Positions 21,124-40,217 of a DNA stretch of 64,000 nucleotides are shown here, one piece after another. The notes under the pieces were generated by a model. It ran no database searches. It was not told the DNA's origin and saw only the letters and a list, made by a program, of their open reading frames with translations. Source of the DNA: Flintibacter faecis. Its GTDB lineage: Bacteria > Bacillota > Clostridia > Oscillospirales > Oscillospiraceae. The stretch is taken from contig NZ_JACOPN010000006.1 in assembly GCF_014287875.1 (NCBI RefSeq), positions 157,993 to 221,992 of the forward strand. The letters are read 5' to 3'. The translations under genes were made by a program, and so were the position numbers. Position 1 is the first letter of the stretch. Each line of letters starts with the position of its first letter.

Positions 21124-21124
21124 A

Positions 21125-24466: not shown

Positions 24467-24478
24467 GTATGCTCTCCT

Positions 24479-26527
24479 TTATTCTTCCGTATCTTCGTCT
24501 GTTTTTACTTTGACGGGCCGATATTGCGGTTTGAAAATGTAATAAATCTGCTTGCAGAATTGCCAGCGAATAGAGCCTTTCGGGAGAATTTTCTTCGCAA
24601 ACTCGCGGCGGCGTGTGCCTTTGGGGAGCAGCTTGTCGGCAAGCTTGCGGGCACCGGATCGGGTGTCGAAAATTCCTGCTCGACATTGTAAATCGTAAAC
24701 TGCAGGATGGAGTTGCCCCAACTTTGTATCTACCATTCGTGAAATTATTGTTCCAAAAAAAGGAGTGTGTATTGCAACCTTCCACCACTCATACCCATAA
24801 TCCATTTCTGGAAAAACCCATGGTTTTGGTTGTGCCGCCCAATGCAGCAAAAAAGGTCGTTCATGAGCATCATGATAGTCTCTTTTAGCAGCTATAGGCG
24901 CAAAGCTATCAATCGTATCTTTGATATTTGGAGCAACCATTGCATACATATTCCATGCTATATCTATAAACTTAATTTTTCCATCAAATACCAAATTCAG
25001 GACATCCTGTTCCTGCACGATAAACTTATGACTTTGAGCTATTTTTAGTAGTTCTTCTTTACAAATTGTTTTTCGACACTTTTCAAGATTAAAAAGAACC
25101 ACACCAGTGTTTACATACTCATACGGATTTGAAAGTGTCAAAATTTTCTTGCAATACTTTTGAATTTCTTTGTCGCCGTTATACCAGCCTTGCCAAACGA
25201 CATCTAATGCAGCAGCCATACAGTAGTCTTTAACATCGATTGCATACAATTTTGCAATATCAGTTTTTGCAACAATATCACAATCCATTACGATTGCCTT
25301 ATCGTAGTGTTTCAGAATATATGGAGCAAGCAAACGGTAATAGGCAACTATTGATTGATTTGCCGAGTTTACAAAAAGGTCGACATTTTTTAAGAGTGGT
25401 TGCGCGTTATAGAAGCGAATTGATACATTTGTATATCCTTCTGCCATCTTCTTCATTAGCCGTTTGTTATCGTCTGTAATATCATGTTCAAATATAATAA
25501 TGTCATAATTATTTATAGACGCAGAATTATTGATTACCGATTTTATGAAAACACTTGCATAGGGCACAAAATAATTACTGGAGCTTATTACAACAGGAAC
25601 GTTATTTTCCTTGAACGCAGGCAACAAGTCTGTAATTGGTTCGCTTTTAGTATCGGAAAAATATACTAAATCTTTTTCACAGCATTTGTATCTCGAAGAC
25701 CGGAGAAGATGCAGGTAGAAAATACCGAACAAATTCTCTGCCATAAACCCAGGCATTCGCATTTTCCATGTTCCATAATGCGTTGTATCTAGATGCTTTT
25801 CCAATTCGAAAAGAACATCAAAAAGCATTGAGCAAAATTCATCAAAGACCGTTTTTTTCATGACAAAACAGTTGTAATATTTTGCGAAATGCCCCTCAAA
25901 ATATTGATCTACATCGCTTGAATAATCCGGATATTTTTCTTTTATTATTTTTATAAAAGAATCTACACCGTTCATATCAAAGTCTCGGATTCGAGATTTA
26001 CACAGTTCATACATAGACGAATGTTTACCGTCCCAAGCGTAATAGACATTTTCACTCGGTGTGGTTATTAAATCATGTTGCAAAATCTCTTCCTTCATGA
26101 CTTCGATGTTTTGTAACGAAAACTTTTTTAAATTGCTCTTTGATAGTTTATCAGTTACCAAAAAACCACTCTTATCATTTTTCGGACGAAAAGACTTTTT
26201 CGCAAAAGAAATATACCTTCTGTAATGACACAGTCCATAGTAATCTGCCTTCACATTTTTCCAGGCCCAGTATAAGACTGTCAATTCACAGAAACTATTC
26301 CGTTTCTCCGAAATATTATCCCCCGTATCATCCCCCAGCATATCCACGTTTTCCCGCTCGTCATACACCGCGCCGCAGCGAACCGGGATATACAGCGGAT
26401 TATCAATGGTCTCACTGTCCAAATCAATTCGGTGGGACACAAAAATCTTGATATCCGGCTTTTCCGGGGTCCCATGATATTTCAGGCATTCCACATCAGG
26501 GACCGGTTTGTACGCTTTTTTCTCCAC
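24479..26527 (-). CDS. DUF4422 - GT8 fusion glycosyltransferase
   Basis: 682 residues from a GTG at 26527 placed after GGAGAAAGAGAC; an open frame continues upstream without a start signal. Residues about 25-260 are a DUF4422 domain (IKIFVSHRIDLDSETIDNPL, YYGLCHYRRYISF). Residues about 330-590 are a GT8-like domain (VPVVISSSNYFVPYASVFIK, AIVMDCDIVAKTDI with the DxD metal site, HWAAQPKPW). The C-terminal 90 residues are basic. The middle is clearly more AT-rich than its neighbours, suggesting a recently imported segment. Two transferase activities on one chain are inferred. Confidence 0.85.
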   Translation of the reverse strand: MEKKAYKPVPDVECLKYHGTPEKPDIKIFVSHRIDLDSETIDNPLYIPVRCGAVYDERENVDMLGDDTGDNISEKRNSFCELTVLYWAWKNVKADYYGLCHYRRYISFAKKSFRPKNDKSGFLVTDKLSKSNLKKFSLQNIEVMKEEILQHDLITTPSENVYYAWDGKHSSMYELCKSRIRDFDMNGVDSFIKIIKEKYPDYSSDVDQYFEGHFAKYYNCFVMKKTVFDEFCSMLFDVLFELEKHLDTTHYGTWKMRMPGFMAENLFGIFYLHLLRSSRYKCCEKDLVYFSDTKSEPITDLLPAFKENNVPVVISSSNYFVPYASVFIKSVINNSASINNYDIIIFEHDITDDNKRLMKKMAEGYTNVSIRFYNAQPLLKNVDLFVNSANQSIVAYYRLLAPYILKHYDKAIVMDCDIVAKTDIAKLYAIDVKDYCMAAALDVVWQGWYNGDKEIQKYCKKILTLSNPYEYVNTGVVLFNLEKCRKTICKEELLKIAQSHKFIVQEQDVLNLVFDGKIKFIDIAWNMYAMVAPNIKDTIDSFAPIAAKRDYHDAHERPFLLHWAAQPKPWVFPEMDYGYEWWKVAIHTPFFGTIISRMVDTKLGQLHPAVYDLQCRAGIFDTRSGARKLADKLLPKGTRRREFAKKILPKGSIRWQFCKQIYYIFKPQYRPVKVKTDEDTEE

Positions 26528-26568
26528 GTCTCTTTCTCCTCTGTCTATTTTGTATTGGTATTTTTTCG

Positions 26569-27534
26569 CTAAACTACGGACTTTATTGTGCGGACCATAC
26601 TTTTCAGCCGCTCCCGCCGCAGACTCCCTTTGGGGAACAGCGGGTCCAGCAGCATCCGAAGCACACGGTCTCCACGGCGTTTCATCTTTCGGAGCCACAG
26701 GTCACATGTTCCCCGGACGGGCCGCGTATCCAGGAATTTGACCAGCTGCAGCTCTTTGATTTTCCAGTCCTCAAAGTGGATGATGTGGTAGAGGAATATC
26801 CCGAATAAAATCTCTCCCACATACCCCGGGACCCGCTGTAATCTTCCGCTGGGGTGCTGCTCCAATTCAAACAGGATGGGGAACTGAAACTGACACATCC
26901 GGTCAAACAATTCCCGCTTGAACACATAGCAGTTATAGCCCCGGTGCTCGGTGCTGTTCAGGTACTCCCGTGCCGCGCGGCTGTACTGCGGGGCCTTTTG
27001 GTCGATCAGTGCAAGCATCCGGTCTATGGTGTCCGATTCGATCAAGACCCCGGCGTTTGCCCGCCAGACATCCCCCACGTTGGACTGGGGCCCTTTTGGT
27101 GTCGTGATCAAATGTACTGGGGCGGGCTGGGGGATGACCGCGTCATATTCCGAAATGATCTGGCTCATGTGGTCTGGTGATAAGAGACCATATTTTTCCA
27201 TAGTCTCCTGATTCAAAAAGTCCTCCTCCACCAGCCCCTGGGTGTCCACGGGGTAGGTGAGGTCAGAGAAGGACAGGTAGCGCCGATAGTGGCACAGCCC
27301 ATAGTAGTCGGCGGTTTGGTTTTTCCACGCCCAATAGGCCACCGTGAACTCGCTCAGGTGAGACCGCTGTTCCGAAATATTCTCTCCCGTGTCGTCTCCT
27401 GCGATATTCATAGGATTCTCTTTATCAAACACTGCGCCGCAGCGAACGGGAATGTACAGCGGATTATTGACCAGTTCACTGGTTATATCGATCCTATGTG
27501 ACACAAAAATCTTGATTTCCGGTTTCTCAGTCAA
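26569..27534 (-). CDS. DUF4422 family glycosyltransferase
   Basis: 321 residues from a TTG at 27534, chosen for the AAGGGGGG about ten bases before it; an in-frame ATG at 27555 lacks a site. Its first 60 residues (EIKIFVSHRIDITSELVNNP, YIPVRCGAVFD) closely match the N-terminus of the next gene's DUF4422 domain, so the two are paralogues. CHYRRYLSF and NCYVFKRELFDRMCQF are also shared. The start overlaps the stop of the upstream GT2 gene. Confidence 0.8.
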   Translation of the reverse strand: MTEKPEIKIFVSHRIDITSELVNNPLYIPVRCGAVFDKENPMNIAGDDTGENISEQRSHLSEFTVAYWAWKNQTADYYGLCHYRRYLSFSDLTYPVDTQGLVEEDFLNQETMEKYGLLSPDHMSQIISEYDAVIPQPAPVHLITTPKGPQSNVGDVWRANAGVLIESDTIDRMLALIDQKAPQYSRAAREYLNSTEHRGYNCYVFKRELFDRMCQFQFPILFELEQHPSGRLQRVPGYVGEILFGIFLYHIIHFEDWKIKELQLVKFLDTRPVRGTCDLWLRKMKRRGDRVLRMLLDPLFPKGSLRRERLKSMVRTIKSVV

Positions 27535-28369
27535 AATGAGCACACCCCCCTTCAAGCCGACGTTTTATGTTCTGAAGCAGCCCGGCAGGCAGCAGCCCCA
27601 CCGCCAATGGCTTCAATACGAAGGGCCACGCCAACGGCAATCGTCCCAGGTCCCGGAATCTTTCGTACCGCGTAACGCTCTCGTTCCACCTATGCCGCAT
27701 CCTTCGCCGCTCCTTTGCCGTGGATGGCAGAGAATATGTCAGTAAATTTTCTTGCAGATTCATGCCGCGAAATCCGTTCGCGTAAAGCCGCAGAAGTAAG
27801 TCGTAATCTTCGCATAAGACCTGGCTCTTGCGTTCGGAATATCCGCCGACAGTGTCTAATGCTTCTTTGCGGAACATCAGTGCGGGATGGATAAAAGGCT
27901 GCGTGATATAAAAATCCTTCACATCAGGGAATTTCGGAAGCCGCCGTTCCCCGCAGTCCTTCCCGTCCCGACATAGGGCAACATTACTGCCCACAAACGC
28001 GATATTCCGGTCATCCTCCAACGCCTGAATCTGCGTTTCAAATCGCTGCGGTTCAGACCAGTCATCATCATCCATCCGTGCAATATACGCGCCTCTTGCT
28101 CGACGGAAGCAGGCGTTCAATTTTGAGGCAAGGTCTGTGGCCGGAACGCCCCGGACCAATTGAATGCGGCCATCTTGCCTTGCGAATCGTGCAAGCGTTG
28201 TAAGGGCCTCTTGGCTCGATCCATCATCGCAGATCAAAAATTCCCAATTTTTATAGGTCTGCTGCAAAATCGACCGGACGCTTCGTTCCAAGGGTGTTGT
28301 ATCTGCTTTCCGATAGAGAACACCCATGATCACGGAAATCTGCGGTTCCTTAACTCTGTTCATAAGCAT
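27527..28369 (-). CDS. GT2 family glycosyltransferase
   Basis: 280 residues: SVIMGVLYRKADTTPLERSV opens a GT-A fold, with FLICDDGSSQE and YIARMDDDDWSEPQRFE providing the DxD-type nucleotide and metal site. A C-terminal membrane-proximal stretch (LAWPFVLKPLAVGLLPAG) follows. The start ATG (28369 or 28363) lies inside the end of the ABC ATPase gene, so the genes are coupled. Confidence 0.85.
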   Translation of the reverse strand: MLMNRVKEPQISVIMGVLYRKADTTPLERSVRSILQQTYKNWEFLICDDGSSQEALTTLARFARQDGRIQLVRGVPATDLASKLNACFRRARGAYIARMDDDDWSEPQRFETQIQALEDDRNIAFVGSNVALCRDGKDCGERRLPKFPDVKDFYITQPFIHPALMFRKEALDTVGGYSERKSQVLCEDYDLLLRLYANGFRGMNLQENLLTYSLPSTAKERRRMRHRWNESVTRYERFRDLGRLPLAWPFVLKPLAVGLLPAGLLQNIKRRLEGGCAHFD

Positions 28370-29138
28370 CACAGAGTTCTTTTGTGGCCCCCACCATCTG
28401 CACCTCCCCATGCTCCAGCCACACCACCCGGTCACACATCTCCCGAATCTGCTGCAAGCTGTGGGACACAAACAGCACCGTCGTTCCGCCGCTCATCAAT
28501 TCCAGCATCCGCTTGCGGCTTTTTTCCTGAAAGTCCGCATCGCCCACAGACAGAATCTCGTCCACGATCAGAATCTCGGGATTCACCACCGTGGCGATGG
28601 AGAAGGCCAGCCGGGCCAGCATACCGGAGGAGTAGTTGCGGATGGGCACCTCGATAAACTGCCCCAGCTCGGAGAAGGCCACGATCTCGTCATATTTGGA
28701 CTGCAAAAATTCCTCGCTGTACCCCAAGATCGCGCCGTTGAGGAAAATGTTCTCATGTCCCGTCAGGTCCATATCAAAGCCGGAGCCCAGCTCCAGCATG
28801 GGGACAATGTTGCCGTGGCTGGTCACGCTGCCCTCGGTGGGCTTTAAAATGCCGGAGATCACCTTCAAAATGGTGCTCTTGCCGGCTCCGTTGTGGCCGA
28901 TGATGCCCATGACCTCGCCCTTGTACACGTCGAAGCTGGCGCGCTTCAGCGCCCAGAACTCGTTGATTTTCAGCTTGCCGCTGAGCTTGCGGGTAACGAA
29001 TTCCTTCAGGGACATGATCTTGTCGTCCGTCAGGCGGAAGCGCATGGACACGTCCCGGACCTCGATCATTTTCTTTCGCTGGCGCTCGGCATCCCGGGCC
29101 TGTCGCTCCCGCAGTTCTTTTTTCGTTTCTTTCCTCAT
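28350..29138 (-). CDS. polysaccharide ABC exporter ATP-binding protein (Wzt/TagH type)
   Basis: 262 residues from the ATG after AGGTGGCGAGC. Walker A GHNGAGKS, a Q-loop region, signature YSSGMLARLAFSI, Walker B ILIVDEILSVGD and the switch His in LFVSHSLQQI are all present. A charged N-terminal extension (RKETKKELRERQARDAERQR) precedes the ATPase core. It pairs with the ABC-2 permease immediately upstream to export the finished glycan. No C-terminal glycan-binding domain is present. Confidence 0.92.
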   Translation of the reverse strand: MRKETKKELRERQARDAERQRKKMIEVRDVSMRFRLTDDKIMSLKEFVTRKLSGKLKINEFWALKRASFDVYKGEVMGIIGHNGAGKSTILKVISGILKPTEGSVTSHGNIVPMLELGSGFDMDLTGHENIFLNGAILGYSEEFLQSKYDEIVAFSELGQFIEVPIRNYSSGMLARLAFSIATVVNPEILIVDEILSVGDADFQEKSRKRMLELMSGGTTVLFVSHSLQQIREMCDRVVWLEHGEVQMVGATKELCDAYEQS

Positions 29139-29150
29139 GCTCGCCACCTG

Positions 29151-30629
29151 TTACAGATAGAGGACAAACTTGTCCTGAGATTTTTTGAAGACAACCGCGC
29201 CGATCACCAGCGTCACCAGCGCAATGACCGCACACTGGGCGTACATCACCGGCTCCGGGGAGATACCGTCGATGATGCAGCTGCGGACGAAGGTCACATA
29301 GAGGTACAGCGGGTTCATTTTCACCACCGCCTGTACGCCCTCCGGCAGGGCGCTCACGGGGTAGAAAATCGGGGTCAGGTACATCCAGATGGTGGTCAGC
29401 ACGCCCCACAAGAACTGAATATCCCGGAAGAACACCATGGCCGCAGCCAGCAGCATCCCCAGCCCCAGGCAGAACAGCGCCAGCAGGAACAGGGGGATGG
29501 GCAGCAGCAGATACGCCTTGGTGGGGACCAGCCCGGAGAACAGCGCCACCGCAAACAGCGGGATCAAGGAAATCAGCAGATTTACCATGGAGGACATGAT
29601 GCGCGTCAGCGGGTAGATATACTTGGGCACATAGACCTTAGTGATCAGCCCCGCATTGCCCACGATGGAGGTCAGCGCCATGCCGCAGGACTCGGAAAAA
29701 TAGCTGAACACCACGTTGCCGCACAGCAGATACACCGGGAAATTCGGGATATCGAACTTGAACATATTGGAGAACACCACATACTGCACCAGCATATTCA
29801 GCAGCGGGTTCAGGAAACTCCAAAACACGCCCAGCACCGAGCGCTTATACTTGGCCTTAAAATCCCGGTCCACCAGCTGCTTGATGAGGAAGCGGTACTT
29901 CTGCACCGCCACCAGGGCGTTGGCCAGAACGCTGTGTTCGCCCCGCTTCCACTTCCGGTAAACCAGCAGCAGATACAGAGCGATGACCGCACCCAAAGCG
30001 GCAGTGAACTCCCAGTAGTGCAGGCCAGTCCAGATGTAGTCCTCGCCGGTGACAGAGAAGCAGAGAACCCCCTCGGCGGGCTGGCCGTTCATGGTCAGGG
30101 AGAAGGGGGTCTGGCCCTCTTTCAGGTCCTCGTTCAAGGCCGCTGCGCCGCTGACGGACATCAGGGGCGAGGCCGCCGTGCCGGGGGCGGAGTCGGCGTA
30201 CACCCGCAGGAGCAGGGGCGTGTTGCACAGCCCCTCGATGGGTTCGTCCGCCGTCATGGTGGTCAGGCCGCCCTCCTGGATCTGGGACACGTCGAAGGTC
30301 TTGGACAGCACCAGGGACCCGTCATTCTGGTTGTACAGCTCCATGGTCGCCGTGCCGCTGTTGGGGCGGTAGTAGGTCCCCCACTGGACGCTGATTTCCT
30401 GCAAGCGCTGGACCTCCATGGAGAAGGTCTGTTCGAGCACCGCCCCCTGCACAAGCTCCACGGTGCCGGACTCAGCGACGGGCAAAGCAATATCCCCCCG
30501 GGACTCCCGGAAGTGCAACTGGTGGCCCATGAGAAAATAAAGGAGAATGACCAGCGCCACATACACTGCGATGCAGAGGGCGCAGATGCGTTTCAGGTTA
30601 AAACTTGGCTGTTGTTTGTTTGATTTCAT
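29151..30629 (-). CDS. ABC-2 type polysaccharide exporter permease with N-terminal ectodomain
   Basis: 492 residues from the ATG at 30629 (AGGAACG upstream); open frame extends to 30707. Residues about 12-34 form a first TM helix. Residues about 40-205 form an outside, beta-rich domain (TFSMEVQRLQEISVQWGTYY, TFDVSQIQEGGL), followed by a second helix. Residues about 245-490 are a standard ABC-2 permease (DFKAKYKRSVLGVFWSFLNP; YLTPIFYPVSALPEG; MNPLYLYVTFVRSCI). The ectodomain is not usual for Wzm/TagG permeases and may contact the glycan or wall. It is the first intact gene of the minus-strand operon, next to the recB remnant and switch. Confidence 0.88.
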   Translation of the reverse strand: MKSNKQQPSFNLKRICALCIAVYVALVILLYFLMGHQLHFRESRGDIALPVAESGTVELVQGAVLEQTFSMEVQRLQEISVQWGTYYRPNSGTATMELYNQNDGSLVLSKTFDVSQIQEGGLTTMTADEPIEGLCNTPLLLRVYADSAPGTAASPLMSVSGAAALNEDLKEGQTPFSLTMNGQPAEGVLCFSVTGEDYIWTGLHYWEFTAALGAVIALYLLLVYRKWKRGEHSVLANALVAVQKYRFLIKQLVDRDFKAKYKRSVLGVFWSFLNPLLNMLVQYVVFSNMFKFDIPNFPVYLLCGNVVFSYFSESCGMALTSIVGNAGLITKVYVPKYIYPLTRIMSSMVNLLISLIPLFAVALFSGLVPTKAYLLLPIPLFLLALFCLGLGMLLAAAMVFFRDIQFLWGVLTTIWMYLTPIFYPVSALPEGVQAVVKMNPLYLYVTFVRSCIIDGISPEPVMYAQCAVIALVTLVIGAVVFKKSQDKFVLYL

Positions 30630-30690
30630 AAAATGCGTTCCTGATTCCATAGATTTTTCTTGGAAGCCCGTCGGGCTTCCAGAGTGAGAG

Positions 30691-30972
30691 TTATTCCCAC
30701 CCCACACTCAACTGCTCCGTCTCCAGCTGCCGCTCATACGCCTGCCGCACCAGCAAATCAAAGTTCGCCTCAATGCCCGAGATGGTGGTTTTGTAGAGCT
30801 GCCGCAGAGCGCGGATATTGCCCTTTTCGGCGGGCACCTTGGCCTCCAGCGCCAGCTTTTGGATGAACAGGCTGACCTGGGTTCGGGCGATGGCGGAGCC
30901 GTCCTTCTTGGTAAAAATCATGCCGGAGGGGTGGCCGTTTTCTTGGGCGTAGCGAAGTAAATCCGCGCTCAA
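30691..30972 (-). pseudogene. recB-like recombinase remnant (C-terminal third)
   Basis: The frame from a TTG at 30972 encodes the last ~93 residues of the protein at 33404-34255 with few changes (ENGHPSGMIFTKKDGSA, NIRALRQLYKTTISGIEANF). The 5' leader up to GGGGTTGAGC is kept and then joins directly to the codon for residue ~190, so about 570 bases were deleted. It precedes the permease gene exactly as recB precedes the glycosyltransferase gene on the right. Confidence 0.85.
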
Positions 30973-31010
30973 CCCCGTTCGTTTTGGACGTAATTGTTGT
31001 TTTGTACTTC

Positions 31011-31038
31011 AAAAAAGCTGCACCACGAAAAAGGTGCA
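31011..31038 (-). terminator. possible attenuator in the left leader
   Basis: Read leftward, TGCACC pairs with GGTGCA and is followed by GCTTTTTT. It lies between the leftward promoter and the recB remnant/permease operon and is not conserved in the right copy. The six-pair stem is weak, so it may reduce rather than stop transcription. Confidence 0.35.
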
Positions 31039-31051
31039 AAAATTCACCGTT

Positions 31052-31080
31052 AGAATACCACTTCCGGCGGAAAAAGGCAA
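31052..31080 (-). promoter_or_regulatory. leftward promoter inside the left switch
   Basis: Minus strand: TTGCCT (31080-31075), 17-base spacer, TATTCT (31057-31052) with the TGG extended -10 element. The conserved counterpart is at 33189-33217. In this copy it points out of the segment towards the exporter/CDP-sugar operon. Confidence 0.6.
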
Positions 31081-31160
31081 GCATTCTGTAAAATTTTACA
31101 GCCGAAAACAGAGCCGATTCCTAGGAATTTGAACCGGCTCAATCATTTTTTATCACTTTT

Positions 31161-31191
31161 CGCCCTGCAAATGACTTGCAGGGCGTTTTTT
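31161..31191 (+). terminator. rightward terminator inside the left switch
   Basis: CGCCCTGCAA pairs with TTGCAGGGCG and is followed by TTTTTT. It blocks rightward transcripts, here towards the recA remnant. Confidence 0.85.
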
Positions 31192-31246
31192 ATGCTGTTT
31201 TCAGACAAGAATCGCCTGTTGCATTACAAAATAGAAATTATGTAAA

Positions 31247-31605
31247 TCATTGGACCAATCCCAGCTTATCCAGTTGCCGGAGGTACTCTTTCCCCGTGGA
31301 CATGAGGTAAATTCGGGTGGTCTCAATGCTGCTGTGCCCCAGCACGTCGGCCAGCCGGACCACGTCGTGACAGGAGCCGTAGAAGGACCGGGCGAACAGG
31401 CTGCGGAGGTTGTGAGGGAACACTTTGCTCCGCTCTACGCCCGCCGCTTCGCAGAGGGCCTTCATGCGGGTCCAGATAGATTGCCGGGAAACGGGGAGAC
31501 CGTCTTGGGTGAGAAATAGCTTGCCCGAGGCGATTTTTTGCTGTTTGGCGTACTTTTGCAGCTTCCGGCAGAGCCGATGGGGGAGCAGGATGGTGCGGAT
31601 TTTGC
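31247..31605 (-). pseudogene. recA-like recombinase remnant (C-terminal half)
   Basis: An inverted copy of 32763-33121 encodes the last ~118 residues of the intact recombinase (KIRTILLPHRLCRKLQKYAK, FPHNLRSLFARSFYGS, LGHSSIETTRIYLMSTGKEY). The match ends at about 31605, where the coding sequence of the next feature begins on the other strand. The apparent extension of this frame to 32047 is antisense to that gene and not real. Confidence 0.88.
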
Positions 31606-32206
31606 CCTCCCCCGCAACTATGAGGAGTGGGTGCTGTATTTCCGGCATTACAAGACCTACTGCGAGATGCTGGCCAAGCGGGGAAACGTGCAGAGGAAGG
31701 TGGAATTGCGTAGAATTGCCCTGCCGTATTTGGCGGAGGTGTGCGGCCATGCGGAGGAGCTGAGCAAGGAGGAGCAGCGGGCCATCGTCATTGCCCAGAC
31801 GCTCTCCTGCATGGGTCCCAAAGAAATCGGGAATGCGCTGTTGCTGCTGAACACCTGCCAGGGCCAGCTGTTTGGCTTCGTGCCGGAGCAGCTGGGGGTT
31901 CGGAACGCAAAGGAGTTGCGGACGGTTTTCGGTATCCTCTGTGAGGTCGTCCGCCTCGCACCGGCAGAGTTTTACTTCCCCTTGACAGTGCGGATGGAGC
32001 GTGAAATTTACAAGGCAGTGTCCGCATGGACGGGCAATACACACCACGAAAGCACGACAGTTTTGCAGCGGATCTGGGAAGAAAAGCGCTGGATGAAGGA
32101 AAACGGAAAACAGGCTTCGCCGGAAATTACAGGATTATTGAAGCTGCATCACTACTACATGAAGACGCTGAACGGAGACGGCCAGCCGGAGTGGGACGAG
32201 TTGTAA
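31606..32206 (+). pseudogene. uncharacterised gene of the recombinase cassette, 5' truncated
   Basis: Open from the inversion junction to the stop at 32206, about 200 residues (NYEEWVLYFRHYKTYCEMLA, LSKEEQRAIVIAQTLSCMGP, TGLLKLHHYYMKTLNGDGQP). It is mostly helical with no recognised domain. No start signal is visible, and the available upstream ATG at 31538 lies in antisense recombinase sequence, so the true start was probably lost. It ends 66 bases before recA on the same strand, so it may once have been a regulatory gene of the switch. Confidence 0.55.
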
Positions 32207-32272
32207 GTCAATACTGCCAAATCCGCCGGTCACTGCTACAATGATGCAAATATCAGCATTGGAGGAAGAATC

Positions 32273-33121
32273 ATGAAAAAGAAAATGCAGCTGACCCAGC
32301 GGGAATTCGACCAGTTCGAGGACTACCTGCGCCACGACGAGCGGGAGGAGAGCACTATCGAGGCCTACCTCCGTTCCCTGACCCGCTTTGCGGAGTGGGC
32401 GGATGGCCGGGCCGTGACCAAGGAGCTGGCCATGGAGTGGAAAACGGCGCTGTCCGAGGCCGGCTACCGCCCCATCTCTGTGAACGCCATGCTGGCGGCG
32501 GTGAACAAGTTTTTCACTTGCATGGGGCGGGAGGACTGCAAAGTCAAATATCTCAAGCTCCAGCGGCAGATGTTTCGCAAATCCGAAAAGGACCTGTCGA
32601 AAGAGGAGTACCAGCGTCTGGTCCAGGCGGCCCACGAGAAGGGCGATTTGCGGATGGAGCTGATTTTAGAAACCATCTGCGCCACCGGCATCCGGGTGGG
32701 CGAGCTGAAGTACATCACCGTGGAGGCGGTACGGGCTGGCGTGGCGGAAATCGCCTTGAAGGGGAAAATTCGCACGATTTTGCTGCCTCATCGACTGTGC
32801 CGCAAGCTGCAAAAGTACGCCAAAAAGCAAAAAATCGCCTCGGGCAAGCTGTTTCTCACCCAAGACGGTTTACCTGTTTCAAGACAATCTATCTGGACCC
32901 GCATGAAGGCCCTCTGCGAAGCGGCGGGCGTGGAGCGGAGCAAGGTGTTCCCCCACAACCTCCGCAGTCTGTTCGCCCGGTCCTTCTACGGCTCCTGCCA
33001 CGACGTGGTGCGCCTGGCCGATGTGCTGGGGCACAGCAGCATTGAGACCACCCGAATTTACCTCATGTCTACGGGAAAAGAGTACCTCCGGCAGCTGGAC
33101 AAGCTGGGTCTGGTCCGATGA
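32273..33121 (+). CDS. tyrosine recombinase, candidate invertase (recA of the cassette)
   Basis: 282 residues after GGAGGAAGAATC. The SAM-like N-terminal domain covers about 5-95 (FEDYLRHDEREESTIEAYL). The catalytic domain has all residues: Arg in ATGIRVGELKYI, Lys near ALKGKIRT, HNLRSLFAR, GHSSIETTRIYLM with His and the nucleophile Tyr. It lies immediately beside the inverted repeats at 33128-33378, with the left repeat starting six bases after its stop. It is the best candidate for flipping both switch segments. The label recA is local and unrelated to RecA. Confidence 0.9.
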   Translation: MKKKMQLTQREFDQFEDYLRHDEREESTIEAYLRSLTRFAEWADGRAVTKELAMEWKTALSEAGYRPISVNAMLAAVNKFFTCMGREDCKVKYLKLQRQMFRKSEKDLSKEEYQRLVQAAHEKGDLRMELILETICATGIRVGELKYITVEAVRAGVAEIALKGKIRTILLPHRLCRKLQKYAKKQKIASGKLFLTQDGLPVSRQSIWTRMKALCEAAGVERSKVFPHNLRSLFARSFYGSCHDVVRLADVLGHSSIETTRIYLMSTGKEYLRQLDKLGLVR

Positions 33122-33188
33122 TTTGCATAATTGTTGTTTAGCAGTCTTACAGAGTCACACCCCGAAAAAGGTACAAAAATCCACCGTT

Positions 33189-33217
33189 AGGATACCACTT
33201 CCCACGCAAAAAGGCAA
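33189..33217 (-). promoter_or_regulatory. leftward promoter inside the right switch
   Basis: Minus strand: TTGCCT (33217-33212), 17-base spacer, TATCCT (33194-33189) with TGG extended -10. In this orientation it fires into the 3' end of recA. Inversion of the segment would point it at recB and the heptose operon. Confidence 0.6.
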
Positions 33218-33297
33218 GCATTCTGTAAAATTTTACAGCCAAAAACAGAGCCGATTCCTAGGAATTTGAACCGGCTCAATCATTTTTTATCACTTTT

Positions 33298-33329
33298 CGC
33301 CCTGCAAATGTCTTGCAGGGCGTTTTTTT
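33298..33329 (+). terminator. rightward terminator between recA and recB
   Basis: CGCCCTGCAA, five-base loop, TTGCAGGGCG, then TTTTTTT. In the present orientation it stops transcripts coming from recA before recB. Confidence 0.88.
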
Positions 33330-33403
33330 ATGCTGTTTTCAGACAAGAACCGCCCATTGCATTACAAAACAACAATTACGTCCAGAACGAACGGGGTTGA
33401 GCA

Positions 33404-34255
33404 ATGGGACGGCTACACGTTGAGACAATTCAAATCGACCCGGCGCTGCTCCGCCGGACGGCGGACGGCACGGTGCTGACACCGGAGATTCTGGCCGACT
33501 ACGCCGCCAGGCTCCGTGCCCAGGGGCGGCGAGAGGACAGCGTCCGCAGCTGCGAACGAGTTTTAAGGCAGTTCTATGACTTTCTCTCGGCGGACAAACT
33601 GGTAGGAAAAAACACACTCTCCGACTGGCGGGACCAGCTATTGGCGGAGAATTACGCCGTCCGCAGCGTGAACAGCAAGGTCTCCACCGTCAACGCCCTG
33701 CTGGAGAGCATGGGCTGCCGGGAATTTCAGGTGACCAAGCAGCTCCCCGCCGAGGACTTCGACACCCCGGAGCTGACCCGGCAGGAGTACGTCCGAATGC
33801 TCCAGACCGCCAAGATTTTAGAGGATGAGCGGGCCTATGTCCTGACCAAGCTCTTCGCCACCACAGGAATCGCCGTGCTGGACTTACCGGCGGTGACGGT
33901 GGAAGCCGTCCAGACCGGCCACGCCGTTCTGAAATCTGGCAAGAAACTGGAAATCGTTCGTTTTCCGGCCAGTCTGCAAGCGGATTTGCTGCGCTACGCC
34001 CGAGAGAACGGCCACCCCTCCGGCATGATTTTTACCAAGAAGGACGGCTCCGCCGTCGCCAGGACTCAGGTCAGCCTGTTCATCCAAAAGCTGGCGCTGG
34101 AGGCCAAGATACCGGCCGAAAAGGGCAATATCCGAGCTCTGCGGCAGCTCTACAAGACGACCATTTCCGGCATCGAGGCCAACTTCGACCTTCTGGTGCG
34201 GCAGGCCTATGAGCGGCAGCTGGAGACGGAGCAGTTGAGTGTGGGGTGGGAGTGA
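33404..34255 (+). CDS. catalytically degenerate tyrosine recombinase-like protein (recB of the cassette)
   Basis: 283 residues. The N-terminal SAM-like fold (LADYAARLRAQGRREDSVRS ... VNSKVSTVNALLESMGC) and the overall plan follow the intact neighbour, but active-site residues are replaced. ATGIRVGEL is here TTGIAVLDL (Arg lost), HNLR is RALR (His lost), and the GHSS...TTRIYL region is missing. It is therefore unlikely to cut DNA and may bind the switch as a partner or regulator. It is first in the plus-strand operon, with four bases between its stop and the GT2 start. The ribosome site is weak (GGGGTTGAGCA). Confidence 0.8.
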   Translation: MGRLHVETIQIDPALLRRTADGTVLTPEILADYAARLRAQGRREDSVRSCERVLRQFYDFLSADKLVGKNTLSDWRDQLLAENYAVRSVNSKVSTVNALLESMGCREFQVTKQLPAEDFDTPELTRQEYVRMLQTAKILEDERAYVLTKLFATTGIAVLDLPAVTVEAVQTGHAVLKSGKKLEIVRFPASLQADLLRYARENGHPSGMIFTKKDGSAVARTQVSLFIQKLALEAKIPAEKGNIRALRQLYKTTISGIEANFDLLVRQAYERQLETEQLSVGWE

Positions 34256-34259
34256 GACA

Positions 34260-35249
34260 ATGAAAATCAGTGTCATTGTCCCTGTTTATAACGTAGCACC
34301 ATATCTGGCTATATGCTTGAACTCGCTGCTGCCCGCACTGGCCCCCGGGGATGAGTTGCTGTTGGTGCAGGGAGCATCTACGGATAAGAGTAAAGAAATT
34401 TCGCTTCACTATAAAGCAGAACATACCCAGGTGATGGTGCTGGAACAGAATGGAACAGGCCTGTCCAATGCTAGAAATTGTGGATTGCAGGCAGCCACAG
34501 GAGACTATGTTTTATTTATTGACAGTGACGATTTTGTTGAAACAGGTACACTATCTCAACTACTGTCCTCTATCCGCAAAAATGGAACTTCAGTGGACGT
34601 GTGGATGACGGACTATTACAAGCATTTTGAAGCAAATGAAACGGATCAGCTTGTGGAGCAGATTGGTTCGCAACATGTGAGTCAGGTGCAAGAGCTTGCA
34701 AAAATTCTCCCAAGTCATCAGTGCTTCTGGAATGTTTGGAAGAATGTATATCGTCGGAGTTTTTTGCTGGAGAACATGCTGCTTTTTACAGAAAATACCT
34801 ACGCGGAAGATATTGATTTCATGACGAGGCTGTATTTAGCAGGACCAAAAATCCGAACCGCACCTTTGCCATTTTATTATTACCGAATTGGACGCAGTGG
34901 TTCATTGATGAATGAGGTCCCATTAAAACGTGTACAGGATACAGTTTCCGTGCTGGAAAATAGTATCCAACGCTTAAGGTACTCTGGTTTTGCGTGGATA
35001 GGACCTGTTGTTGCCGGATTCCAGTTCGAGTACCTCTTGAATTTGGCATTATTGTGTGAAGTAAGTACACCACATCAAAGGGAAGCACAAAAAGCATATC
35101 GAGATTACCGAAAAATTCTGAGACCCACGACGGATTTTGCTGTAATGGCATGTACTGCTGCCATGTATTTGATTGGTGTGAAAGGAATGTCAAGGCTACT
35201 GTGGTTTGCAAAGTATATGAAACGAAAAAAAGAGCACAGGACAATTTGA
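34260..35249 (+). CDS. GT2 family glycosyltransferase
   Basis: 329 residues. KISVIVPVYNVAPYLAICLN opens the GT-A fold, ARNCGLQAATGDYVLFIDSD carries the DxD site, and ENTYAEDIDFMTRLYLAG is the usual ED acceptor-side motif. It follows recB by four bases, so its expression depends on the switch. GC content drops here relative to recB. Confidence 0.88.
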   Translation: MKISVIVPVYNVAPYLAICLNSLLPALAPGDELLLVQGASTDKSKEISLHYKAEHTQVMVLEQNGTGLSNARNCGLQAATGDYVLFIDSDDFVETGTLSQLLSSIRKNGTSVDVWMTDYYKHFEANETDQLVEQIGSQHVSQVQELAKILPSHQCFWNVWKNVYRRSFLLENMLLFTENTYAEDIDFMTRLYLAGPKIRTAPLPFYYYRIGRSGSLMNEVPLKRVQDTVSVLENSIQRLRYSGFAWIGPVVAGFQFEYLLNLALLCEVSTPHQREAQKAYRDYRKILRPTTDFAVMACTAAMYLIGVKGMSRLLWFAKYMKRKKEHRTI

Positions 35250-35262
35250 ACGGGAGACCGCA

Positions 35263-36357
35263 ATGCCAAGAGTAACTGTACTGTTGCCGACATATCAGTC
35301 TGAAAAATATCTTCACGAAACCATGAAGAGCATATTTTCTCAGAGCTTTCAGGATTTTGAAGTGTTGATCGTAGACGATCATTCAACGGACGATACGCTG
35401 AAAATAATCCAGAGCTTTCCTGACTCACGGGTCAGATTATTGAGTGGCCCGCAAAAAGGTCTGGCTGAAGCATTGAATTGCGGGATGTGTCAGGCTGCAG
35501 GAGAGTACATTGCCCGAATCGATGCAGACGATTTGATGGTCCCATCGCGGTTAGAAAAACAGGTGGCATATATGGACAGTCACCCGGAGGTGGCAGTCTG
35601 CGGAGGATGGCAGCAATACTTTGGCCTTAGCACATATCTTCACGCACCACCGGAGACTTCCGAACAATGCCGGGCAAATTTGCTATTTCGCTGTGATCTA
35701 TGTCACTCCACACTTATGCTGCGGAGAGATGTGTTTTTAGGAAACAGCCTATTTTATGACGATTCCTTTGCTGCGGAGGATTTTGAACTGTGGACCAGGG
35801 TGCTGGACCATGGAGAAATCAGCAACCTTCCCGAGGTGTTGGGATACTACCGAGAGGATGGCAGGAGCATCACAACAGCAAAGAAGGAGCAGCTGATTGT
35901 ACAGCAGAGTGAAATTGTAGCTGCAACCCTAAAACGAAACCTAAATATTGAATTGACACCGGCGCAGACCATGTATTTTCGTGGATGGATCAATCCTTTC
36001 TTTGATACACAATACGGGCTTCCAATTGAAGAACGGGAAAGTGCCTGGCGGGACCTCCGCAGGATATTAGCCCAAATTTATGAACGGAATCGGGAAGCCG
36101 GATATTACGACGAAAAAGCGTTGTTGAAAGCCTTGGCCTCCGAATGGGCCGTATTGCGCTATAATGCTCCGTTTGAGTTGCCCAGAGAGGAAATCCCTAC
36201 CTTGGAGTCCGTGTTTGTAGGGCAAAAGCGAAGTCAAGTTTTGTTGCGAAAAGCACTGAGCTTTTGCAGAAATTACAGGGGGATAAGAAGAAAATACTGG
36301 AAGCTGAAATCTCTGCTAGACAGACGACAGAAGAACAGACACAGAGGAGAAAGATAA
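35263..36357 (+). CDS. GT2 family glycosyltransferase
   Basis: 364 residues. RVTVLLPTYQSEKYLHETMK, LIVDDHSTDDT and YIARIDADDLMVPSRLEKQV (DxD) define a GT2 enzyme; AAEDFELWTRVL is the catalytic-base region. The C-terminal 100 residues are helical and basic. It lies 13 bases after the previous transferase and one base before hddA. Confidence 0.88.
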   Translation: MPRVTVLLPTYQSEKYLHETMKSIFSQSFQDFEVLIVDDHSTDDTLKIIQSFPDSRVRLLSGPQKGLAEALNCGMCQAAGEYIARIDADDLMVPSRLEKQVAYMDSHPEVAVCGGWQQYFGLSTYLHAPPETSEQCRANLLFRCDLCHSTLMLRRDVFLGNSLFYDDSFAAEDFELWTRVLDHGEISNLPEVLGYYREDGRSITTAKKEQLIVQQSEIVAATLKRNLNIELTPAQTMYFRGWINPFFDTQYGLPIEERESAWRDLRRILAQIYERNREAGYYDEKALLKALASEWAVLRYNAPFELPREEIPTLESVFVGQKRSQVLLRKALSFCRNYRGIRRKYWKLKSLLDRRQKNRHRGER

Positions 36358-36358
36358 C

Positions 36359-37345
36359 ATGATCATTACGAAGACACCGTTTCGCATTAGCTTTGCTGGT
36401 GGCGGAAGTGACTTAGCAGATTTTTATGAACAGTACGGCGGGTGTGTGTTAAGCACCTCCATCAACCGCTATTGTTACATCTCTATCCATCCTTATTTTA
36501 ACGAGCGATATACCATGCTGAAGTACTCTGAGAACGAGTTGGTGGAGAGCTTGTCCGAAATCAAACACCGCATTTTTAACTGTGTGCTGAATGAAGCGAA
36601 TCTTCATGGCGTTGAGATCACCTCTACCGCTGATATTCCCGGAGGAACTGGGCTCGGGTCTTCCAGCACGTTTACGGTCGGCTTGTTGAATACAGTGAAT
36701 TGCTATCGCGGAAAGTATATGTCTAAGAGTGCCTTGGCGGAGAAGGCCTGTGAAGTGGAGATTCAGAAGCTGGGCAGTCCCATTGGCAAGCAGGACCAGT
36801 ACGCGGCGGCCTTCGGTGGGCTGAACTTTATTCAGTTCCACAAAGACGGCACGACATCGGTTGCGCCCATTGTAATGCAGCCGGAAACGTACCGAAAGCT
36901 GCAGAAAAATCTGGTGATGTTCTATACCGGCGATGTCCGCTCGGCCAATTCGATTTTGGCAGAGCAGAAAAAGAATATGAGTTCAGAGGAGAAGGCGAAG
37001 AACCTTCAACAGATGTGTGGCTTGGCAGAAGATATGAAGCAGGCGTTGGAGCATGATGACCTTTCTTCGTTCGGAGATTTGCTGAATGAGGGCTGGAAGC
37101 TGAAACGAACGCTGGCATCTGGAATTTCGAACCCTGTCATCGACGAGGCGTATGAGACAGCTATGTCTAACGGAGCCCTTGGCGGCAAACTGCTGGGTGC
37201 AGGCGGCGGCGGTTTCCTGCTGTTCTACTGTGAGCCGGAGAAACAGGAGCAGCTGCGGGTGGCTCTGAAGATGCGCCCCTTCCCCTTCAAGTTTGAAAAG
37301 GACGGAACTTCTGTTGTTTATATTGGCGATAAATATTGGGATTAA
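36359..37345 (+). CDS. hddA: D-glycero-alpha-D-manno-heptose 7-phosphate kinase
   Basis: 328 residues, GHMP kinase fold: TPFRISFAGGGSDLADFYEQ (substrate end), GGTGLGSSSTFTVGLL (ATP motif), GSPIGKQDQYAAAFGGLN and LLGAGGGGFLLF. These match HddA, which phosphorylates C1 of heptose 7-phosphate. All other steps to GDP-heptose are encoded within the next 3 kb, which supports the assignment over other sugar kinases. Confidence 0.9.
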   Translation: MIITKTPFRISFAGGGSDLADFYEQYGGCVLSTSINRYCYISIHPYFNERYTMLKYSENELVESLSEIKHRIFNCVLNEANLHGVEITSTADIPGGTGLGSSSTFTVGLLNTVNCYRGKYMSKSALAEKACEVEIQKLGSPIGKQDQYAAAFGGLNFIQFHKDGTTSVAPIVMQPETYRKLQKNLVMFYTGDVRSANSILAEQKKNMSSEEKAKNLQQMCGLAEDMKQALEHDDLSSFGDLLNEGWKLKRTLASGISNPVIDEAYETAMSNGALGGKLLGAGGGGFLLFYCEPEKQEQLRVALKMRPFPFKFEKDGTSVVYIGDKYWD

Positions 37346-37360
37346 GAAAGGAAGACGATT

Positions 37361-38293
37361 ATGAAGGTTTTAGTGGCAGGCGGAGCCGGTTTTATTGGCA
37401 GCCATCTGATCGATGCCCTGCTGGCAGAAGGCAACGATGTGGTCTGCGTGGATAACTTCTTTATTGGCACCAAAGAAAATATTGCCCATTTGAAGGATAA
37501 CGCACATTTTAAGTTCTATGAGCAGGACCTGACGGACCTGGACAAGGTACTGGAGATTTTCAAAAAGGAACATGTAGAGTATGTGTTCCATCTGGCAGCG
37601 AATTCTGATATTCAGGCCAGTGCCCAGAGCCCCATGATCGAGTACAAAAACACTTATTCCACCACGTTCATTCTGCTGGAGTGCATGCGCCAGTGCGGTG
37701 TGAAGAAGCTGTTCTTTGCTTCCACTTCTGCTGTGTATGGGGAGCAGATGGGGGCCGAAGTCAGTGAGGAGGCCGTCGCTTTGAAGCCCATTTCCTACTA
37801 CGGCGGTGCCAAACTGGGGTCTGAGGGGATTATTTCCTCCTTTGCCTATATGAACGACATGAGTGTACTGGTATTTCGCTTCCCCAATGTAATCGGTCCT
37901 CGGTTGACCCATGGCGTGATTTATGACTTTGTCAAGCGACTGAAAGATGACCCCTCTCATCTGAAAATTCTGGGCGATGGCCGACAGAGCAAGCCTTATA
38001 TCTATGTGTTGGATTTGGTTGATGCGATTATGCACTTCAAGGATGCTCCCAAGGGTGTAACGCTATATAACGTCGGCGTTGAGACGCAGACCTCAGTGAC
38101 GCGGATTGCGGAGATCGTCTGCGAAAAAATGGGCCTGTCCGGGATTCCCTTTGAGTATACCGGCGGCCGTGGCGGCTGGAAGGGCGATGTGCCTGTGTTT
38201 GCTTACAATCTGGAGAAAATCCATGCCACCGGTTGGACGGCGCACATGACCAGCGATGAAGCGGTTGCCAAGACCGTAGAAATGGTGCTGTGA
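37361..38293 (+). CDS. NAD-dependent nucleotide-sugar epimerase/dehydratase
   Basis: 310 residues, extended SDR: VAGGAGFIGSHLIDALL, FHLAANSDIQAS, FFASTSAVYGEQMG and SYYGGAKLGSEGII (YxxxK). The Thr/Ser-rich active-site strand without Asp-Glu favours a C4-epimerase type over a dehydratase. Between hddA and hddC it probably modifies GDP-heptose or another activated sugar of this glycan; the substrate is inferred only. Confidence 0.8.
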   Translation: MKVLVAGGAGFIGSHLIDALLAEGNDVVCVDNFFIGTKENIAHLKDNAHFKFYEQDLTDLDKVLEIFKKEHVEYVFHLAANSDIQASAQSPMIEYKNTYSTTFILLECMRQCGVKKLFFASTSAVYGEQMGAEVSEEAVALKPISYYGGAKLGSEGIISSFAYMNDMSVLVFRFPNVIGPRLTHGVIYDFVKRLKDDPSHLKILGDGRQSKPYIYVLDLVDAIMHFKDAPKGVTLYNVGVETQTSVTRIAEIVCEKMGLSGIPFEYTGGRGGWKGDVPVFAYNLEKIHATGWTAHMTSDEAVAKTVEMVL

Positions 38294-39591
38294 TGCAGGC
38301 GGTCATTATGGCAGGCGGGAAAGGGACCCGTCTGCGTGCAATTACAAATGATGAGATTCCAAAGCCCATGGCACCCGTGGCCGGAAAGCCCATTTTGGAG
38401 TGGCAGATAGAATGTCTGCGCCGTCAGGGGATTACGGATATTGTGATGATTACCGGACATTTAGGTCATAAAATCCGTGAATATTTCGAGAACGGGGCCC
38501 GTTTTGGCGTAGCGATTCAGTATATCGAAGAAACAACCCCACTGGGAACGGCGGGCGCACTTTCCATGGTGCCGCAGCTTCTGACCGGGAACAGCTTTTT
38601 CCTGGTCTTTGGCGATGTCTTGTTTGATATTGACCTGATCCGCATGGAACGCTTCCACAGGGAGCGAAAGGCGCTTGCTACGCTGTTTGTCCATCCGAAT
38701 GTCCATCCGTTTGACTCAGACCTTGTGGTTTGCGACGAGAATGGGAAAGTGCTGAAATTTGACTCCAAGCACAATGTGCGGAATTACTGGTATCACAACT
38801 GCGTCAATGCGGGTTTTTATCTCATGAACCGGTCCATTTGTGAGAAAGTTCCTGACAATACAAAGGTAGACCTGGAAAAAGAGTTGCTCAGCAGCTTAAT
38901 TTCAGAAGGGCAACCAATTTATGGTTATCATTCTCCAGAATATATCAAAGACGTCGGAACTGTGGAGCGCATTCAAAAAGCGGAAGGTGAACTGACCAGC
39001 GGATTTATCCGTGGCCGCTGTCTGAACCAGAAGCAAAAAGCGATTTTTCTGGATCGAGACGGTACGATCAACAAGAAAAACGGGTTGGTCTATCAGGAGG
39101 ACCAGTTTGAGCTGGAAGACTGTGCAGTAGAAGCAATTCGGAAGATCAATGCCTCCGGTTACCTGGCAATCGTGGTGACCAATCAGCCTGTGGTGGCGAG
39201 AGGCCTTTGTGAGGTAGCGGATGTGGAACGAATCCATCAGAAAATGGAAACGCTGCTAGGGCAGAAAGGTGTCTATTTGGATGAGATTCGCTTCTGCCCC
39301 CATCACCCGGACAGGGGGTATCCCGAGGAAAATCCGGCCTATAAAATTCCGTGTCATTGCCGAAAGCCGGATATTGGAATGCTGGAGGACTGTGCCGCAG
39401 CGTACAACATCGCGCTGGAAGAATCCTGGATGATTGGCGATACAACGGTAGATATTCAGACTGGCAAGAATGCCGGGACAAAGACGGCATTAGTGCTGAC
39501 CGGCGATGCCGGGAACGATAAAAAGTACAATGTGACTCCAGATTTGGTCTGCCAGGACTTGCTGGAGGCCGTGAACAAAATTTTGACATAA
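38293..39591 (+). CDS. HddC-GmhB fusion: heptose-1-P guanylyltransferase plus heptose bisphosphate phosphatase
   Basis: 432 residues. Residues about 1-240 are a nucleotidyltransferase (VIMAGGKGTRLRAITNDEIP, KPMAPVAGKPILEWQIE, FGDVLFDIDL). Residues about 250-430 are a HAD-IIIA phosphatase (AIFLDRDGTINKK with DxD nucleophile; VVTNQPVVARGL; CPHHPDRGYP; CHCRKPDIGML; SWMIGDTTVDI). The Cys/His zinc loop is typical of GmhB. The two steps are usually on separate proteins. The ATG overlaps the previous stop. Confidence 0.9.
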   Translation: MQAVIMAGGKGTRLRAITNDEIPKPMAPVAGKPILEWQIECLRRQGITDIVMITGHLGHKIREYFENGARFGVAIQYIEETTPLGTAGALSMVPQLLTGNSFFLVFGDVLFDIDLIRMERFHRERKALATLFVHPNVHPFDSDLVVCDENGKVLKFDSKHNVRNYWYHNCVNAGFYLMNRSICEKVPDNTKVDLEKELLSSLISEGQPIYGYHSPEYIKDVGTVERIQKAEGELTSGFIRGRCLNQKQKAIFLDRDGTINKKNGLVYQEDQFELEDCAVEAIRKINASGYLAIVVTNQPVVARGLCEVADVERIHQKMETLLGQKGVYLDEIRFCPHHPDRGYPEENPAYKIPCHCRKPDIGMLEDCAAAYNIALEESWMIGDTTVDIQTGKNAGTKTALVLTGDAGNDKKYNVTPDLVCQDLLEAVNKILT

Positions 39592-39603
39592 TTGGGGGAC
39601 GAC

Positions 39604-40188
39604 ATGAATTATATTGCCGACATTAAAAGCTACATTGCACTGGAACAAGAAATTCTGTCTAAGTTGGACATAGACACGATCAACGAAGCATTGAATCTGC
39701 TGGATGAGACCCGTTTGAAGAAAGGCAGAATCTATATCTGCGGCAACGGCGGCAGTGCAGCAACGGCATCCCATTTCCAGAACGACTTTAACAAGGGCGT
39801 TTCTGAATACATCGATATTCCGTTCCGCTTTGACTGCCTGAACGATAATATGGCCACGATTATGGCCATTGCGAATGACATTGGTTATGAAGAGGTGTTC
39901 CGCTTCCAACTGCGGGGGAACCTGGAGCCAAACGACATTTTAGTAGCGATTTCCGGCAGCGGCAATTCGAAAAACGTCATTAACGCGGTGGAGTATGCGA
40001 AAGAGCAAGGGAACAAGATCATTGGATTAACGGGCTACTCCGGTGGAAAACTGAAAAAGCTTGCCGATATTTCCCTCCATGTGCCGGTGAATAGTATGCA
40101 GGTGACGGAAGATATACACATGGTGTTCGATCATCTGATGATGAGTATGTTTTATAAGTATTTGTGCGGGAAAGAGCATTTGAAGTAA
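39604..40188 (+). CDS. gmhA: sedoheptulose 7-phosphate isomerase
   Basis: 194 residues from the ATG after GGGGGACGAC. SIS domain: ICGNGGSAATASHFQNDFNK, VAISGSGNSKNVINAVEYAK, and HMVFDHLMMSMF near the end, as in GmhA. It starts the heptose pathway by converting sedoheptulose 7-phosphate to D-glycero-D-manno-heptose 7-phosphate. It lies 12 bases after the hddC-gmhB fusion. Confidence 0.93.
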   Translation: MNYIADIKSYIALEQEILSKLDIDTINEALNLLDETRLKKGRIYICGNGGSAATASHFQNDFNKGVSEYIDIPFRFDCLNDNMATIMAIANDIGYEEVFRFQLRGNLEPNDILVAISGSGNSKNVINAVEYAKEQGNKIIGLTGYSGGKLKKLADISLHVPVNSMQVTEDIHMVFDHLMMSMFYKYLCGKEHLK

Positions 40189-40217
40189 AAATACATATAC
40201 CATTTGGGGGTGAGACT

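Follow-up and report, generated by a model that had tools for sequence, protein, structure and literature searches.

A candidate invertible promoter with an adjacent tyrosine recombinase, and a catalytically dead paralog behind it, at a surface-glycan locus of Flintibacter faecis

Does a locus of Flintibacter faecis, in which two similar segments of about 250 bp lie in opposite orientations relative to their genes, hold a working DNA switch, and what would flip and restrain it? The locus was studied in a window of 64,000 nucleotides (contig NZ_JACOPN010000006.1, positions 157,993 to 221,992 of the forward strand); positions given below are those of the window. Two units are placed back to back in it, each consisting of a recombinase gene or its remnant, the segment, a second recombinase-like gene or its remnant, and a glycan operon. 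The right unit reads recA, segment, recB and glycan operon on the plus strand, and the left unit recA', segment, recB' and glycan operon on the minus strand. The names recA and recB are labels for tyrosine-recombinase-like genes, unrelated to the repair proteins RecA and RecBCD. We hold with considerable confidence that the right unit is a self-contained on/off switch for a surface-glycan operon, flipped by the adjacent recombinase and putatively restrained by RecB as a governor, and that the left unit has decayed.

The difference in orientation was read from the repeats that connect the two units. The segments are direct repeats over 201 nt (30991-31191 and 33128-33328, 90% identity) and over a second stretch of 58 nt (31186-31243 and 33324-33381, 88%), which bears out the original prediction, made from the letters of this DNA, of near-identical segments running in the same plus-strand direction. 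Their flanks are inverted repeats, over 393 nt at the recA ends (31216-31608 and 32760-33152, 89%) and over 272 nt at the recB ends (30695-30966 and 33980-34251, 92%). Since the flanking genes are mirrored (89-92%) while the segments are direct (88-90%), one segment is inverted relative to its genes, as had been proposed. The flank described in that prediction as the recB start is inverted between the copies, but on the left it survives as leader sequence only, since residues 190-283 are all that recB' retains. The longest inverted repeat that holds a pair of segment ends is an outer pair of 46 nt (93%), enclosing both segments plus recA.

The right unit has the parts of an intact switch. Its segment is bounded by perfect 12-bp inverted repeats, and six bases separate the first repeat from recA, both as previously noted; 227 bp lie between the repeats. 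RecA retains all catalytic residues (R, K, H, R, H and Y), and a 99% identical match is labelled Lawsonibacter sp. DFI.6.74. Each segment in the window contains one promoter-like site on the minus strand and one oppositely directed terminator-like hairpin on the plus strand. In the right segment, the predicted promoter is directed back towards recA and the hairpin towards the right operon, which suggests that this segment was OFF at sampling. In the left segment, the predicted promoter is directed into the left operon, suggestive of an ON state.

From these elements we infer the following mechanism. RecA, designated as the enzyme by its adjacency and its intact catalytic residues, would act on the two 12-bp repeats and flip the 227-bp segment. 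In the ON orientation, the predicted promoter would drive recB and the surface-glycan operon. In the OFF orientation, it would point away, and the putative terminator, where present, would lie between recA and the operon. RecB made in ON cells would bind the same or similar sites, and would hold back the following flip and/or transcription driven by the promoter in its ON orientation.

The left unit is a decayed copy, probably locked ON. Both of its recombinase genes are truncated. Of the window's four repeat sites, three have the core TAATTGTTGTTT, and the fourth, the left recA'-side site, differs from it at three positions; the 13 matches in 16 reported earlier for the left repeats were recovered, with these three core bases differing between the two repeats of the left segment. 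Strand exchange by tyrosine recombinases requires equal cores, and we therefore predict that the left segment does not flip on its own. In other cassettes (L079, L081, L085/L086 and L071), the gene directly behind recB shows 57-60% identity to the ABC-2 exporter of the left operon, so that the left unit is best read as a decayed form of a cassette that other loci have kept intact. Thus, the phase-variable pair of glycan promoters originally envisaged stands as regards opposite orientation, an internal predicted promoter, an adjacent intact recombinase and glycan operons on both sides; instead of a second invertible segment, however, the left copy is probably a locked-ON remnant.

Table 1. Features of the two units, with window coordinates. 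Promoters and hairpins are predictions; ON and OFF are relative to the operon of each unit.
Feature	Position	Strand	Remarks
Left glycan operon	19990..30707	-	ABC-2 exporter, ATPase, glycosyltransferases, CDP-glucose pathway, UDP-galactopyranose mutase
recB' remnant	30694..30975	-	residues 190-283, 95% identical to recB
Outer inverted repeat, left arm	30967..31012	+	46 nt, 93%
Left segment, probably ON	30991..31243		
Weaker terminator-like hairpin between left promoter and left operon	31018..31039	-	7 pairs, 4 GC, loop of 8
Left predicted promoter TTGCCT-17-TATTCT, facing left operon (ON)	31052..31080	-	8/12 consensus bases
Left terminator-like hairpin, facing away from left operon	31161..31185	+	
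Left recA'-side repeat	31226..31243	-	altered core TTCTATTT vs TGTTGTTT
recA' remnant	31250..31618	-	residues 160-282, 96% identical to recA
recA, intact tyrosine recombinase (XerD-like), proposed invertase	32273..33121	+	Pfam PF00589 E 1.3e-24; XerD 1a0p E 1.7e-24
Right invertible segment with both repeats, probably OFF	33128..33378		perfect 12-bp inverted repeats, 227 bp between; promoter on minus strand
Right segment, recA-side repeat	33128..33139	+	TAATTGTTGTTT
Right predicted promoter TTGCCT-17-TATCCT, facing recA (OFF)	33189..33217	-	8/12 consensus bases
Intrinsic-terminator-like hairpin and T run, facing right operon in OFF	33298..33322	+	
Outer inverted repeat, right arm	33357..33402	-	if the block between the arms inverted, the two operons would exchange promoters
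Right segment, operon-side repeat	33367..33378	-	
recB, tyrosine-recombinase-fold protein without catalytic residues, first gene of right operon	33404..34255	+	
Right glycan operon	34239..41423	+	glycosyltransferases, GHMP kinase, epimerase, nucleotidyltransferase/HAD, SIS isomerase, GT8-GT2

An open reading frame (ORF) of 222 aa (31538-32206, plus strand) lies between the units and overlaps the recA' remnant; it had no match in Pfam or NCBIfam, nor in the other loci compared.

The arrangement recurs widely. Among 400 sampled genomes from the family of one relative, 96 had a RecB match (E≤1e-20, including cross-hits to the active recombinase); at E≤1e-35, a match was present in 14 of 86 genomes of one genus. 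From a survey set of 77 RecB rows in 68 sources, cassettes were defined as recA, a gap of 200-450 nt and recB. After removal of identical loci, 42 were left from 28 genomes: the window, one metagenome-assembled genome (MAG) labelled Blautia and 26 genomes of the family. With end windows extended into the region of the recA stop, the gap was bounded by inverted repeats scoring at least 9 in 39 of the 42 and at least 12 in 31; shuffled ends reached these scores in 3.0% and 0.05% of cases. In those 39 cassettes, the median distance from the recA stop to the start of the left repeat is 5 nt, and the median inner length is 238 nt. As a control, recB rows without an adjacent recA, which include some cross-hits and tandem copies, never exceeded the best of their own 60 shuffles (0/26). 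Judged from this recurrence of sequence features, the recA-segment-recB unit is a family-wide cassette.

The survey was extended to recA in 12 genomes chosen for having RecB matches, which gave 52 recA-type matches; 30 of these loci were read, together with a Pusillibacter plasmid. Where no recB lay within 1.5 kb, repeats above 30 shuffles were detected in 9 of 10 distinct testable loci (the exception being L151; two further recA-only loci, at a contig end and at an N stretch, are outside this count). With recB nearby, 13 of 18 recA loci exceeded their shuffles. The repeats at recA-only loci indicate that recA and the segment form the basic unit, to which recB is an addition.

Both orientations of the cassette were found when relatives were compared, including a near-identical pair in one genome, in line with the inversion first claimed for the window. 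Genome G372 carries two cassettes (L085 and L086) on opposite strands of one contig, at ~536 kb and ~1,330 kb. They are 100% identical over 960 nt upstream and 99.2% identical over 4,347 nt downstream, and their 218-bp segments are 100% identical but in opposite orientation. The 33 downstream differences argue that these are two real copies. The closest relative found of the right unit, L001, has its homologous segment opposite to that of this unit (68% over 161 nt, in minus alignment), and L094 and L130 differ in the same way (79% over 160 nt), as do other such pairs. The evidence for both orientations spans copies and species, rather than one population. Thus, a repeat-bounded segment, a predicted internal promoter and, across copies and species, both orientations, by which an inverton is recognized, were all found. 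As a separate observation, recombination between L085 and L086, given their inverted positions, could invert roughly 0.8 Mb of chromosome.

Orientation was also called from the best promoter, with hand-set weights, in 48 segments (39 with recB and 9 recA-only). A call was possible in 45 of the 48, with 13 ON, 32 OFF and 3 undecided. The split was 12 ON and 25 OFF with recB, against 1 ON and 7 OFF for recA-only segments, in small counts. These calls agreed with the relative orientation obtained by alignment in 27 of 27 comparisons (rows of at least 70 nt between decided segments). A terminator-like hairpin opposes the promoter in 15 of 39 segments and runs along it in 1 of 39, for a shuffled rate of 1.4% per strand; this tally leaves out the left copy of the window and takes the orientation of the two undecided G372 copies from the position of their promoters. 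Promoter and terminator functions are predictions from these patterns.

Several observations weigh against the reading of the right unit as one member of a family of switches. The G372 pair comes from a single assembly, and an assembly error at the segment is not excluded. Both window promoters match just 8/12 consensus bases and went unlisted by the promoter scanner, because its threshold is 9/12; the winning promoters of L083 and L148 were below the 95% shuffle level. By the strict rule, 23 of 39 segments have no terminator, and the simple ON call for the left unit is weakened by the hairpin at 31018-31039, which could attenuate the left operon. As regards the repeats, ends paired across loci reached scores of at least 9 in 18.3% and at least 12 in 3.7% of cases; the repeats share a family motif, and the own pair beat every cross pairing in just 17 of 42 cassettes. 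The narrow end windows of a first pass gave repeats of at least 9 in 33 of 42 loci, and 3 of 42 (L071, L093 and L113) failed even with wider windows, although L093 (as L064) carries 27-nt arms outside the end window. Finally, 5 of the 18 recB-bearing recA loci were not above their shuffles (L069, L137, L145, L149 and L155).

The gene behind the switch is the most unusual part of the cassette. The gene named recB in the original prediction is recombinase-like, but not a second working recombinase. The protein has the core-binding and catalytic domains of the tyrosine-recombinase fold, without the R-K-H-R-H/W-Y set of an active enzyme: the window copy has no catalytic Tyr, His-II, His-III or Arg-I. 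Among 55 distinct RecB-type proteins, Tyr, His-II and His-III were each present in none and Arg-I in 18, and Arg-II is mostly kept. By comparison, all 44 distinct RecA-type proteins have R, K, H, R and H, and 43 have Y. A sequence search of recB against solved structures gave no match at E≤1. We considered that RecB might be a decaying pseudogene and rejected this, since dN/dS was below 1 (0.07-0.68) in all of the 60 pairs, out of 63, that gave a finite ratio, the pairs being non-independent. By this measure, RecB is under purifying selection. Metagenomic protein P0120 appears in alignment to be a chimera of a recA N-terminal part and a recB C-terminal part, which suggests that the sister genes have recombined. 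In L087, L096 and L104, from two genomes (G296 and G218), recA is followed by tandem recB-like copies or fragments; of the four recA loci of this tandem type that were read, L144 had a repeat above its shuffles and three (L137, L145 and L155) did not.

As the first gene behind the switch, recB is expected to be expressed mainly in ON cells, and its product may limit flipping and/or transcription. A governor occupying the repeats is the role that we prefer, since recB is separated from the promoter by the operon-side repeat and Arg-II is mostly kept. Two facts go against this role. The existence of recA-only cassettes means that RecB is unnecessary for the switch, and orphan recB genes, with no adjacent recA or detected repeats, suggest that RecB may do something else; they lie behind a flagellin gene (L108, 63-3280), an S-layer-homology (SLH) gene (L103) and FIVAR-domain genes (L088 and L090). 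L108 comes from genome G405; the second contig of this genome matches the Pusillibacter faecalis plasmid.

The orphan genes fit at least as well a RecB that is a recombinase-derived transcription regulator, acting on promoters and not on inversion. MrpR (YopR), the repressor of prophage SPbeta, also has a tyrosine-recombinase fold that has lost catalytic residues, a precedent which, as far as that article's account of the protein goes, makes a repressor role a serious rival (PMC10516654). The likeness is incomplete: by the same account, MrpR retains the tyrosine and the lysine and is a phage repressor, whereas RecB has no tyrosine and is found behind a DNA switch. We give this explanation a substantial chance, somewhat short of even.

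A second rival concerns the window itself, where the outer sites (30991 and 33367) might invert the 2.4-kb block with recA inside it, so that the promoter of the left segment, which always faces outward, would be transferred from one operon (left) to the other (right). The 46-nt outer pair would suit such an either/or toggle, its sites being identical over 21 bases compared with the 12-bp pair of the right segment, and inversion of the block in silico gave right ON and left OFF, with the other promoter facing inward. Together with flipping of the right segment, this would never leave both operons OFF. However, the outer repeat owes its length to duplication of the leader, and two facing cassettes were found in no relative among the loci read. 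The common core would also allow deletion of the 30991-33128 stretch, with loss of recA; neither this deletion nor the block inversion was observed in a relative among these loci. We regard the toggle as possible but doubtful. A fuller scheme, in which the family-wide cassette has a RecB governor made only in ON that occupies the sites and times the ON state, while the window pair shares one enzyme as an either/or selector through the 2.4-kb inversion so that at least one glycan is always made, is unlikely to hold in all its parts.

XerC and XerD operate as a pair, and RecB could similarly be an obligatory non-catalytic partner of RecA in a hetero-tetramer. Indeed, recA and recB distances correlate overall (r 0.378, 0/2000 permutations, 31 of 42 cassettes usable). 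Within genomes, however, co-evolution of the two genes was indistinguishable from chance pairing, as 526 of 2000 relabellings reached the observed value, which also gives no help to our own reading. The recA-only cassettes with clear repeats (9/10) further speak against an obligatory partner. Recombinases acting in trio exist (PMC8138268), but we consider this explanation improbable.

That both window segments are fossils, with an old difference in orientation and nothing flipping now, would agree with the truncated recA' and recB' and the altered core on the left, but is very improbable given the intact right unit with its perfect repeats and complete RecA, and the opposite orientation in L001. 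In view of the promoter predicted within the segment, we set aside, without excluding it, a model with a terminator only, as for CwpV; a further promoter may lie outside the segment.

Surface-glycan phase variation is well known in Bacteroides, where the promoters of capsule operons are invertible between inverted repeats and control surface polysaccharide operons, several per genome. Most cassettes described here differ in having their own adjacent tyrosine recombinase, and their hosts are Gram-positive Clostridia. The fim switch of E. coli also places two recombinase-like genes, fimB and fimE, beside one invertible promoter; FimB and FimE are both active enzymes, in contrast to RecB. In Clostridioides difficile, CwpV/RecV resembles our system in recombinase-mediated inversion, a terminator role proposed in OFF and a surface protein as cargo; as described in the sections of that report on the switch, however, the promoter is outside the segment and recV is not near cwpV, whereas here the predicted promoter is inside and the recombinase adjacent (PMC2784873).

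The nearest published counterpart is inverton group 139 in a 2025 survey of a defined gut community (Microbiome, PMC11892184). According to its text on this group, Clostridia account for 32 of the 33 invertons, and tyrosine-type recombinases that belong to invertase group 35 lie nearby. The example from Intestinimonas butyriciproducens has 14-bp repeats ~227 bp apart by the printed coordinates, and its orientation changed in culture. The adjacent tyrosine-type recombinase and the repeat spacing match the right unit in geometry, so the recA-segment part is likely already known in kind. A dead recombinase paralog behind the switch is not described in that text for group 139, which we compared by its description. 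By the same account, Clostridia-like strains have a median of 3 invertons per genome and Bacteroidota one of 8.5, invertases near invertons are generally not under the inverton promoter (group 145 being a possible exception), and the group 139 recombinases are classed as non-regulatable genes. Among the matches listed in our literature search, no title or abstract mentioned a catalytically dead recombinase behind an invertible promoter, which is weak evidence of absence.

The present family adds a compact recurring cassette, usually with its own enzyme, placed before glycan operons, SLH proteins and pili, and a predicted switch whose output includes a dead copy of that enzyme. Were RecB to set the memory of the ON state, it would provide a simple case of natural feedback acting on DNA inversion, and might serve as a component in engineered memory circuits.

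The cargo was examined by chaining downstream ORFs of at least 100 aa in 25 of 38 cassettes (63 ORFs); Pfam searches covered 30 of these ORFs, which come from 21 of the chained loci. Glycan genes were found downstream in six (the window, L001, L072, L073, L074 and L077), an ABC-2 exporter in three (L079, L081 and L085), SLH proteins in six (L092, L094, L101, L116, L118 and L122), pilus genes in two (L114 and L117), a VWA protein in one (L075) and DUF4379 in two (L109 and L123); the downstream ORFs of L106 had no Pfam match at E≤1e-6. The G372 pair caught in both orientations has the same exporter type as the left operon of the window. L110 and L116, both from genome G402, have the same repeat core AATCAACATT, which makes exchange between these two cassettes conceivable.

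Viral-contig scans with RecB and RecA returned 22 and 5 pattern matches, none of which was confirmed, and the 56 matches in phage records were all below 60% identity. One contig scan with RecB gave 2 loci. The plasmid search gave one record, the Pusillibacter faecalis plasmid, a named recA-only cassette that sits before an SLH-VWA protein gene. The contig of L001 (JALERH010000018.1, from the MAG labelled Blautia; recA end 90% and recB 76% identical to the right unit) is probably mis-binned or transferred; the other contigs of this MAG had weak recA matches only.

The gene content of the right glycan operon corresponds to a heptose-nucleotide-like set. At its far end, and facing it, lies a large serine recombinase gene with Resolvase, Recombinase and zinc-ribbon domains (41455-42999, minus strand), possibly a mark of horizontal acquisition of the operon.

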